Virus record (IMG/VR): IMGVR_UViG_3300046010_008128
Location: 1-21,756 of that record
DNA from: a virus
Strand: one strand, 5' to 3'
DNA: 21,756 nucleotides
Made by a program: the position numbers and the translations under genes. Below, one piece after another: positions 9,850-11,186 of this stretch (its first letter is position 1; each line of letters begins with the position of its first letter). The notes below the pieces were generated by a model that did not search any database, was not told the DNA's origin, and was given only the letters and a program-made list of their open reading frames with translations.

Positions 9850-10170
9850 TTAAACTCTGAAACTCTCTCCGCAACCGCAACGGTCACGTTCATTTGGATT
9901 TATAAACTCGAAACCTTCATTCAAACCTTTTTTAACCCAATCAATTTCTAGCCCTGTGAGATAAACACTACTTTTTGGGTCAATAAAAATTTTACAATTT
10001 TTCAAATTGTAACATTGATCTTCAGACTGAGGTTCATCGACAAATTCTAATACGTATGCTAAACCACTGCATCCAGTAGTTTTCACACCCACTCTTAATC
10101 CGATGCCTTTACCGCGTTTATTAAGGTTTAATTTAATTTTTTCAGCTGCAATATCAGTTAATTGAATCAT
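9850..10170 (-). CDS. iscA: A-type iron-sulfur carrier IscA
   Basis: A protein of 106 residues, normal for IscA and close to the E. coli protein throughout. The three cluster-binding cysteines are Cys34 (TTGCSG), Cys98 and Cys100 (CGCGESF), and the LEFVDEP and KGLNEGFEF segments are typical. IscA accepts iron or Fe-S clusters and hands [4Fe-4S] clusters to target enzymes. The start lies 17 bases inside the end of iscU, so the two are translationally coupled. No other isc gene (iscS, hscA, hscB, fdx) is visible in the window, so the phage must use the host's cysteine desulfurase. Phage copies of isc genes are unusual auxiliary metabolic genes. Confidence 0.95.
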
Positions 10171-10420
10171 TTTTTTGTTTGTAATCTGCTATTGCTGCTT
10201 TGATAGCATCTTCAGCAAGTATTGAACAATGAATCTTAACAGGAGGTAGGGCAAGTTCTTCAGCAATTTGGACATTTTTAATCTGTCCTGCTTCATCTAG
10301 CGATTTACCTTTAACCCATTCAGTGACTAACGAACTTGACGCAATCGCCGAACCACAACCATAGGTCTTGAATCTTGCATCAGTAATAACACCATCTTGT
10401 ACTTTAATTTGAAGTTTCAT
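10154..10420 (-). CDS. iscU: Iron-sulfur scaffold IscU, C-terminal part (residues from Met41 on)
   Basis: Read alone from the ATG at 10420 this gives 88 residues that match E. coli IscU from VMKLQIKV to near the C-terminus. They include Cys in TYGCGS, the HscA-binding LPPVK motif, and Cys in KIHCSI. The first cluster ligand (PAC) and the whole N-terminus are missing. They are encoded just upstream in the same frame at 10433-10549, with a UAG in between. The ATG used here aligns with an internal methionine of IscU and has only a weak AGG upstream. Strong conservation of both halves suggests that a full-length product is, or very recently was, made. The end overlaps iscA by 17 bases. Confidence 0.93.
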
Positions 10421-10426
10421 TACATC

Positions 10427-10435
10427 GCCTATCTA
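10427..10435 (-). other. Nine-base in-frame insertion TAGATAGGC interrupting iscU (candidate bypass site)
   Basis: Compared with known IscU, the coding strand reads CCA GCG TGC GGT TAG ATA GGC GAT GTA ATG, where Pro-Ala-Cys-Gly-Asp-Val-Met is expected. Nine bases are extra, the frame is kept, and the first inserted codon is the stop UAG. A GGT (Gly) precedes the stop and a GGC (Gly), read by the same tRNA, follows six bases later. A hop from GGT to GGC would restore the family sequence exactly. Alternatives are re-initiation at the ATG twelve bases beyond the stop codon, suppression of UAG (adding three residues), or a disabled gene. Confidence 0.8.
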
Positions 10436-10549
10436 ACCGCACGCTGGGGCACCGACTATACCGGTCCCAACGTGCGCTTCTCCTTTATCGAAACTTCCTA
10501 CATTTCTAGGGTTTTCAAAGTGATTAATCACTTTACTGCTGTATGCCAT
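10433..10549 (-). CDS. iscU: Iron-sulfur scaffold IscU, N-terminal part ending at an in-frame UAG
   Basis: This 38-codon frame is too short for usual gene callers. It starts MAYSSKVINHFENPRNVGSF and ends GAPACG, matching the start of E. coli IscU residue for residue over most of its length, up to the cluster ligand Cys37 and Gly38. It then stops at UAG (10433-10435). After nine extra bases the same frame continues with Asp-Val-Met-Lys, so halves of 38 and 90 residues add up to 128, the length of E. coli IscU. The start has a good AAGGA ribosome binding site seven bases upstream and overlaps the 3' end of the HNH endonuclease gene by 17 bases. Its last part is very GC-rich, unlike the rest of iscU. 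Confidence 0.93.
   Translation of the reverse strand: MAYSSKVINHFENPRNVGSFDKGEAHVGTGIVGAPACG
10438..10476 (-). other. Strong GC-rich RNA hairpin ending at the Gly codon before the iscU UAG
   Basis: In the minus-strand RNA, CGCACGUUGGG pairs with CCCAGCGUGCG over eleven base pairs, including one G-U pair. An inner ACCGG pairs with UCGGU around the loop UAUAG, with a two-base GC bulge. The 3' arm ends on the first base of the GGU codon that precedes the stop. By my count 31 of 46 bases at 10437-10482 are G or C, far above the surroundings. No U-tract follows, so it is not an intrinsic terminator. It lies where T4 gene 60 has its 5' stem-loop relative to its take-off codon. Confidence 0.7.
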
Positions 10550-11144
10550 AATATTTTCCTTTTATTATTCTAATAAATGCCATAGACTGATTAGCATGCC
10601 ATTTGGCTCTATTGTCGTGTGCTTTTAAAAATTGTATATTCTTTATGTCGCCTAGTAAAGCAGCAGGTATACCTAATTCAAATCCTTGTTTAATAGAGAC
10701 TATATGATCAATTTGATAATCTGTTTTGTATTTGCCAAATTTTGGTAAAAAATGCCCGTCTGCTTTTAACTTTTTTATTGTTCGATAAGTTGTTTTTCTT
10801 ACTTCACTTTTATATATTTGAAATTCAGTTCTAACTGAATCAGATTTTTTTGGTCTTAAATTATTGAGTTTACCGTCAGCATTTGGATTATTTTCTTTCC
10901 ACCGTATACTCTGTAACACATTTTTCTTTCCTTTATTCCACCCATGTCCTTTTTTTAAACCTGACAAGTTTTGTTTAGATTTTTGTTCTGTTGAAAGTTT
11001 TATTCCTTTATTCCAGGGTTCATATTCACCCCTATTTAGAGGATTCTTACAAACGGTAGAACAAAATAATAAAAATCTGGGTCTAGTAGAAAATAAGTTT
11101 CCGCAAAACTTACAATTTTTCGTGACTCCATATTTGTGTTTCAT
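10533..11144 (-). CDS. HNH homing-type endonuclease with N-terminal zinc finger and NUMOD3-like region
   Basis: A protein of 203 residues. Residues 11-32 form a zinc-finger pattern (Cys11, Cys14, Cys28, Cys32). Residues 43-74 hold two WNKGxK motifs around STEQKSKQNLSGLKKG, as in the NUMOD3 DNA-binding repeats of phage homing endonucleases. The C-terminal third has an HNH site: IDHIVS (His147), Asn169, and KAHDNRAKW (His176 to Lys181). Such enzymes nick or cut a specific site and spread their own gene. It is free-standing between the gene at 11187-11567 and iscU, and its last 17 bases overlap the iscU start, as expected for a mobile insertion. A late promoter and a hairpin enclose its start codon. 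The iscU insertion next door could be related to its target site. Confidence 0.9.
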   Translation of the reverse strand: MKHKYGVTKNCKFCGNLFSTRPRFLLFCSTVCKNPLNRGEYEPWNKGIKLSTEQKSKQNLSGLKKGHGWNKGKKNVLQSIRWKENNPNADGKLNNLRPKKSDSVRTEFQIYKSEVRKTTYRTIKKLKADGHFLPKFGKYKTDYQIDHIVSIKQGFELGIPAALLGDIKNIQFLKAHDNRAKWHANQSMAFIRIIKGKYYGIQQ

Positions 11145-11152
11145 ACAAATAT
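11130..11152 (-). promoter_or_regulatory. Hairpin holding the start codon of the HNH endonuclease in its loop
   Basis: The coding strand reads ATATTTGT, then ATGAAAC, then ACAAATAT: a perfect eight-base-pair stem whose seven-base loop starts with the AUG. The 5' arm overlaps the late promoter. Long read-through transcripts would fold and hide the start, whereas a transcript begun at the late promoter would start at about the AUG and lack the 5' arm. T4 homing endonuclease genes such as I-TevI use this kind of early-off, late-on switch. The stem is AU-rich and moderate in strength. Confidence 0.55.
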
Positions 11153-11157
11153 TTATG
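11150..11157 (-). promoter_or_regulatory. Candidate late promoter CATAAATA for the HNH endonuclease
   Basis: CATAAATA on the minus strand matches the NATAAATA late octamer at seven of the eight T4 consensus positions. It ends five bases before the start codon, so the transcript would begin at or next to the AUG and be nearly leaderless. It could also feed iscU and iscA. A small GC-rich hairpin (TCGG paired with CCGA, 11158-11169) lies just upstream. Confidence 0.55.
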
Positions 11158-11186
11158 TCGGGGCTCCGATTTGTGAGTTTAAGAAG

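Follow-up and report, generated by a model that had tools for sequence, protein, structure and literature searches.

A recurrent stop-containing insert in phage iscU genes, a covarying hairpin and an endonuclease-like neighbor point to a probable short, homing-linked translational bypass

How a phage iscU gene that is interrupted by an in-frame stop codon could still specify a complete IscU protein is the question raised by the window analyzed here, a stretch of 21,756 nucleotides comprising positions 1 to 21,756 of the IMG/VR virus record IMGVR_UViG_3300046010_008128. The interrupted gene lies at 10154-10549 on the minus strand, with codons 1-38 at 10436-10549 and codons 39-128 plus the stop codon at 10154-10426. 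Between Gly38, which follows the sequence GAPAC, and Asp39 lies the nine-base insert TAGATAGGC (10427-10435, minus strand), made up of the stop codon UAG, the spacer AUA and the candidate landing codon GGC. In the coding direction, the putative take-off codon GGT (Gly38, 10438-10436, minus strand) is followed by TAG (10435-10433), ATA (10432-10430) and GGC (10429-10427), after which GAT GTA ATG AAA resumes the same frame from 10426. The initial annotation, which had described iscU as split by an in-frame UAG between two glycine codons, proved exact in coordinates and sequence, and inspection of the joined product confirmed its statement that a skip from GGU to GGC yields the family sequence and 128 residues. 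This product starts MAYSS and ends DSIN, and the gene matches NifU_N (PF01592; E 1.3e-50) with one TAG inside the match. Cys37, Asp39 and the YGCGSA and KIHCS stretches of the family are kept. Downstream of iscU lies iscA (9850-10170, minus strand; PF01521, E 5.5e-17), and elsewhere in the window a radical SAM protein (PF04055; 15911-17035, minus strand) may be an iron-sulfur client served by the phage iscU and iscA products.

The insert is not peculiar to the window. The TAGATA-insert pattern was found in eight further IMG/VR contigs, always in iscU and in six sequence groups, one of which is represented by L086, a near-copy of the window. An unanchored scan, in which 2-32 bases were allowed between PACG and DVMK and neither a stop nor a landing glycine was required, returned 110 stretches, of which 79 were iscU (40 distinct). 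Among these 79, a stop codon stood right after the glycine codon in 73 and GGN preceded GAY in 78, and an ordinary in-frame sense insert was present in none. Longer gaps of 33-63 nt at the iscU site gave 16 stretches, none of them iscU. When these results were pooled with those of stop-anchored scans, alignment of iscU from related phages, which had been proposed as a check on the conservation of the nine bases, showed that one site is interrupted across 130 phage loci of IMG/VR, 68 of them distinct, L086 standing for the window and L089, a window copy, having been removed before counting. The comparison set of 81 uninterrupted genes consists of the 80 best relatives and one named phage, and because these were chosen as best relatives the figures 130 and 81 should not be taken as a prevalence. 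That the inserted records are all metagenomic might speak for an assembly or sequencing artefact, yet this explanation has a negligible probability: independent contigs carry the insert, and 25 different spacers occur among the 68 distinct sequences, from many samples and tied to the hairpin and neighboring gene described below.

The architecture of the site is highly regular. The take-off GGN is followed by a stop in 124 of 130 loci (65 of 68 distinct), a count that is partly built in because the later scans required TRR, TAR or TGA. The stops are TGA in 64 loci, TAG in 42 and TAA in 18, with TGT in the other six. A landing GGN is present in 129 of 130 loci (67 of 68 distinct), and the distance from one glycine codon to the other is 4 nt in 63 loci, 5 in 35, 6 in 22, 7 in 6, 3 in 3 and 2 in 1. 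The insert length modulo 3 is consequently spread over all frames, being 0 in 25 loci, 1 in 69 and 2 in 36. Take-off and landing codons both specify glycine in 129 of 130 loci; they are identical in 44 and share the third-base class in 22 more. In the remaining 63 the third base crosses the pyrimidine/purine divide, mostly from GGU to GGA, and given that one tRNA-Gly should read both of these codons poorly, this counts against a hop in those loci. At a single locus, L168, with TGT after the take-off codon and no landing glycine, a Gly-to-Gly hop fails to restore the family sequence. Five further loci (L094, L111, L128, L140 and L184) have the stop-less arrangement GGT TGTT GGA, in which the zero frame continues for 12 more sense codons; the TGTT inserts are possibly derived from the TAGTTA class. 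In L155, L357 and L372 the hop site is accompanied, in the same iscU gene, by an insertion of ∼340 residues at the YGC/CGSA cysteine, which is likely to be an intein.

On this spread of lengths, no single mechanism other than Gly-to-Gly bypass would restore the family sequence in all three insert frames. Lineage-specific stop readthrough or frameshifting, with suppression of the window UAG adding three residues, has in its favor that some shift opens each length class (+1 in 69 loci, −1 or +2 in 36, and zero-frame readthrough in 25, of 130), and one example, GGC U GAC GGC GAU, resembles prfB. Three different events would nevertheless be needed in relatives sharing one site and one hairpin, and the added residues would fall between the ligands Cys37 and Asp39. 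Readthrough, moreover, would have to cope with all three stop codons and could restore only the 25 in-frame loci, so that the UAG suppression considered in the initial annotation fits those inserts alone. The 30 overlapping tRNA segments that were read, representing part of the tRNAs of 10 records, contained no suppressor anticodon, and five records gave no tRNA matches. Readthrough and frameshifting are on these grounds unlikely. The hop is favored because re-pairing at the second GGN would serve 129 of 130 loci without extra residues, whereas shifts and readthrough each serve single classes.

Termination at UAG followed by a restart at the DVMK ATG, with assembly of two IscU fragments, was likewise weighed. 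A stop close to a start favors coupled re-initiation, and in part of the loci GGAGATGTAATG and similar stretches provide a Shine-Dalgarno-like sequence just before this ATG. Such a restart would, however, drop Asp39, and 24 of 130 genes read DVL and thus have no ATG at this position; in 20 of the 24, no ATG, GTG or TTG occurs within 20 codons past the insert, which tells against the re-initiation alternative as first raised. In the five TGTT loci landing on GGA, the zero frame runs through 12 sense codons before its stop. A split protein would also leave unexplained both the GGN that precedes GAY in 129 of 130 loci and the covarying hairpin, and this interpretation is accordingly quite improbable. 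The Gly-to-Gly bypass, by comparison, takes in both of these features.

Directly 5′ of the take-off codon, a 15-bp mRNA hairpin is predicted from the fold of the window and from covariation among 56 distinct sequences. The family consensus spans 10438-10476 (minus strand), with the 5′ arm at 10462-10476 and the 3′ arm, which carries a two-base bulge, at 10438-10454, and the hairpin closes on the first G of the take-off codon as its final base. In the test region, the 63 nt up to and including the take-off codon in 56 distinct inserted genes, 95.0% of 840 cells were paired, against 89.1% after shuffling, and the covariation score was 0.222 against 0.115; neither value was reached in any of 500 shuffles. 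Pair 27-57 is formed in 56 of 56 sequences, as CG in 29, AU in 23, UA in 3 and GC in 1. Two weaker measures gave 4 pairs changed on both sides against 3.2 expected (123 of 500 shuffles) and 13 further pair types against 10.2 (13 of 500). By contrast, the same positions in 72 uninterrupted relatives (of 73 distinct sequences, with L055 outside the alignment) were paired in 59.9% of cases with covariation equal to that of shuffles. Unaided, RNAalifold recovered the hairpin in the inserted set at −19.9 kcal/mol; it did not find it in the uninterrupted control, for which the energy was −2.95 kcal/mol. Relative to random synonymous recoding, the inserted genes folded with a median z of −3.12 and 50 of 56 lay below −2, whereas the uninterrupted genes gave a median of −0.37 with 11 of 72 below −2. 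A Shine-Dalgarno-like AAAGGAG (10480-10486, minus strand) adjoins the hairpin at its 5′ base, and a GGAG just 5′ of the hairpin is present in 54 of 56 distinct inserted genes against 0 of 73 uninterrupted ones; these counts, like those for the hairpin, are inflated by the relatedness of the sequences. All 130 inserted genes have His or Gln immediately ahead of VGTG, whereas among 81 uninterrupted genes His occurs there in one and Gln in none, a constraint that can be explained by pairing in the hairpin.

Downstream of the insert the median dN/dS is 0.103, compared with 0.122 in uninterrupted genes, indicating about equal purifying selection on the two. Across codons 1-21 constraint is weaker with the insert than without it (0.225 versus 0.129), and this might be taken as a sign of decay, in which the insert would inactivate iscU, host IscU would serve the phage and the insert would persist only as a homing-resistant allele. 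A dead allele would still block cleavage, and the available text of PMC5332604 treats IscU as an auxiliary gene in phages. The downstream constraint, the retention of the landing GGN and a hairpin stronger than the amino acid sequence demands all stand against decay, which is very unlikely; the broken gene suggested at the outset does not fit a downstream dN/dS near 0.10. Of 15 large phage records with an insert, possibly fragments, 14 contained no further IscU. One, the 524-kb record G006, which holds L136, carries a second, intact iscU beside the interrupted one, reflecting either two copies or a mixed assembly.

The initial annotation made no mention of the open reading frame that precedes iscU. 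This 203-residue gene (10533-11144, minus strand), whose last 17 nt overlap the iscU start, encodes a zinc-finger protein resembling a homing endonuclease, with an HNH-type D-H..N..N pattern. Its homologs lie directly beside iscU in 81 of 130 inserted loci but in 0 of 81 uninterrupted ones; among loci with at least 900 nt upstream, an endonuclease-like gene is found in 71 of 115 inserted loci against 0 of 78 uninterrupted ones (Fisher 1.6e-22, a value that ignores kinship). This family is absent from the other 44 of the 115, three of which have another upstream open reading frame, with NUMOD3 in the one tested. The 203-residue protein matches phrog_5104, of unknown function. A D-H..N..N-like pattern occurs in 47 of 54 distinct upstream proteins, and residues D146, H147, N169 and N178 together with four shared cysteines are invariant in 31 aligned members, comprising the window protein and 30 of 31 picked homologs chosen at 215 residues or less. 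Pfam HNH scored two members at E 0.02-0.03, below the cut-off, and the window protein not at all. With a model of the endonuclease, Foldseek gave no match at E ≤ 0.001, and VIA returned weak, mostly HNH rows, the best being an HNH nickase at Z 4.8; sequence searches of the PDB gave no useful match. Profiles and folds thus point weakly to an HNH assignment. In L183, L336, L368 and L370 the upstream homologs keep the N-terminal zinc-finger part and differ in the C-terminal part (DUF559 in L368), which is likely to reflect a domain swap.

Filled and empty alleles of the locus coexist. L001, whose contig name places it in the metagenome of L086, runs collinear with the window (84-90% identical) and lacks both the nine bases and a 626-nt segment (10561-11186, minus strand) that holds all of the endonuclease-like open reading frame except its last 28 nt; 23 other nucleotides stand in place of this segment. 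A related phage lacking the insert, which had been named as grounds for rejecting the bypass, therefore exists, but L001 is an empty allele in which the endonuclease segment is missing too. In L084, conversely, the insert is present and the endonuclease gene absent. Of 103 inserted loci open to this comparison, 40 have a far flank, at least 560 nt upstream, whose counterpart in an uninterrupted phage sits no more than 150 nt from iscU; the comparison covered inserted against uninterrupted loci, and the background rate among uninterrupted pairs lies outside it. Identity between L086 and L001 is 65% over the 51 nt leading up to the take-off codon, 81% over the 63 nt before these and 95% over the first 60 nt past the insert. 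When inserted genes were paired by their 3′ flank, the same 51 nt had a median identity of 0.98, with 0.78 in the 5′ flank and 0.88 in the 3′ flank; the values for uninterrupted genes were 0.73, 0.73 and 0.90, respectively. The insert has been gained or lost repeatedly: a single inserted clade was rejected on a quick tree of the downstream half (AU p 5e-113), on which at least 5 changes are forced by starred branches and 29 by parsimony, and the whole-gene protein tree needs 11 changes, 2 of them forced (the three intein-bearing genes, short C-terminal parts and identical rows were left out of the trees). These sequence relationships suggest a homing cassette by which iscU would be converted.

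The cassette was confined to iscU in the records searched. In 21 phage records a covariance model gave one strong match apiece, at 69-85 bits and in every case in iscU. One further match, of 40 bits, fell on the second, intact iscU copy that one record carries, and all other scores in the 21 records were at most 11.7 bits. VGAPACG followed by TRR matched none of 200 bacterial genomes sampled from a single phylum around a Paraburkholderia genome, a count over all 200 irrespective of how many spell VGAPACG. With a loose gap pattern run on bacterial genomes, no iscU stood among the matches listed (at least 120), which decides nothing. Of named phages, 17 records have an IscU relative; two of the 17 were looked at, and the C48C1 iscU contains no insert. 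The gene order in the other of the two, MD-2021a, is iscR-iscS-iscU-iscA-hscB-hscA and has a bacterial look.

Six inserted iscU genes stop again at a second site, LPP|VKIHC. A scan in which the leucine codon was fixed as CTC returned 16 stretches, 15 of them readable (L118, L333, L336, L345, L368, L370, L415-L419 and L421-L424); L420, which starts inside the site, was left out. The 15 share the layout CTC CCN CCN, then TAACTN or TAGCTT (14 loci) or TGACG (one locus), then GTN AAR, so that the putative take-off CCN and landing CTN are unmatched, which counts against the bypass. The first insert is also present in six, absent in eight and not scorable in one. Here, too, the take-off codon closes a hairpin, in this case a compound one. 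Its outer helix is paired in 98.8% of cases in 13 distinct sequences against 42.3% in uninterrupted genes (40 of 152 available segments), and the inner helix in 64.1% against 46.3%. Covariation is slight, because the scores for the whole structure lie near those of shuffles (87.9% against 86.1% paired; covariation 0.104 against 0.073, reached in 8 of 500). The synonymous-recoding z was below −2 in 13 of 13. On the 3′ side of iscU in eight of these loci lie two related protein types, zinc-finger or NUMOD-bearing and DUF559/Vsr-like, with Pfam matches near or below the cut-off; L132 has the endonuclease type of this site and no insert there.

A homing-endonuclease-linked, hairpin-assisted short translational bypass is, to judge from these sequences, the highly probable explanation of the iscU inserts. 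Comparison lends support to the bypass first suggested for the window, through inserts in three frames, the covarying hairpin, downstream selection and the endonuclease-like neighbor. That suggestion had presented the locus as, if real, a new and minimal example; the short insert is real, but the example is not a single one, belonging to a large, apparently mobile family with a second iscU site. The mobile element would have two parts, the homing-endonuclease-like gene upstream and the short untranslated insert at the Cys37-Gly38-Asp39 codons, a highly conserved part of iscU. After codons 1-38 the ribosome is proposed to stall with peptidyl-tRNA-Gly on GGU while a stop codon occupies the A site. 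Release of the tRNA would be followed by movement of the mRNA by 5-10 nt (9 in the window) and by re-pairing at the downstream GGN, whereupon decoding would restart at Asp39 and give the normal 128-residue, full-length IscU. The 3′ arm of the 15-bp hairpin would lie inside the stalled ribosome, and its 11-bp lower stem might re-form behind the ribosome, pulling the mRNA out and driving the forward slide, a role also suggested for the T4 gene 60 5′ stem-loop. The Shine-Dalgarno-like GGAG, held close by the hairpin, may help to set the landing. By splitting the presumed endonuclease target, the insert would make the carrier genome immune, while uninterrupted iscU alleles would be cut and converted.

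More broadly, though with less confidence, we are inclined to regard the element as a phage "translational intron," a portable hairpin, stop codon and few skipped bases that let homing endonucleases lodge in the active-site codons of iscU and that arose at two sites. If so, it would be a third, translation-level silent seat, in codons that have to remain intact, beside RNA introns and inteins, and the endonuclease types would differ between the two iscU sites and lie on opposite sides of the gene. Confirmation would reveal widespread natural ribosome hopping, in phages so far known mainly from T4, and the 68 distinct variants (2-7 nt, three frames, matched and unmatched landings, empty sister alleles) would allow its dissection by comparison. 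The pairing of endonuclease and bypass in T4 would then be a recurrent strategy.

Among the matches listed in a search of full-text literature, with most subscription journals outside its coverage, bypassing in phage iscU was the subject of no title. The record of T4 gene 60 reads GGA, TAG and a 50-nt gap ending in GGA, with a mobA pseudogene upstream; an experimental paper of 2011 reportedly deals with MobA and this gap. As far as the available texts go, the iscU family resembles gene 60/mobA in having a glycine take-off codon followed by UAG, a glycine landing codon, a 5′ mRNA hairpin, an upstream endonuclease gene (a candidate HNH type in the iscU loci, an HNH pseudogene in T4) and related phages without either part. 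Excerpts of PMC5009743, PMC3014915, PMC2988022 and PMC11194080 describe a hairpin "motor" and glycine take-off, and suggest that the T4 gap protects against a nuclease tied to endonuclease spread. Synthetic "stop hops," in which matched codons around a stop turn nine bases into one amino acid, are described in the accessible part of PMC5009743; these are constructs, whereas the iscU inserts are natural and of similar design. According to the same portion of this 2016 review, a natural in-frame stop hop was not then known, shorter-distance counterparts had long been presumed, and Streptomyces phage Hau3 was a bypass candidate besides gene 60. It also reports 81 bypassed inserts in 12 of 15 genes of Magnusiomyces capitatus mitochondria, seemingly independent of mRNA context. 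Going by that account, the iscU inserts would share with these a short untranslated sequence, bypass by the ribosome and codons that do not always match; unlike them, they are linked to a hairpin and restricted to iscU (21 records). The free-standing T4 seg/mob homing endonucleases, in the text available from PMC2988022, have genes near their targets and cause co-conversion of flanks. The endonuclease-like gene similarly lies near its putative target iscU, but here the insert in the target gene would have to be hopped, and cutting is presumed. Relative to gene 60 itself, the gap is 5-10 rather than 50 nt, the landing is partly unmatched rather than GGA to GGA, and the host gene is iscU rather than a topoisomerase. 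The T4 take-off stem-loop takes in gap bases, whereas the iscU hairpin extends no further than the take-off codon, and 5-10 nt would leave little room for a stem-loop of the T4 type. Bypass of gene 60 additionally involves a nascent-peptide signal. Finally, bypassing is unique to gene 60 among T4-related phages according to the available text of a 2010 review (PMC3014915), whereas the iscU family comprises 68 distinct cases at two sites.
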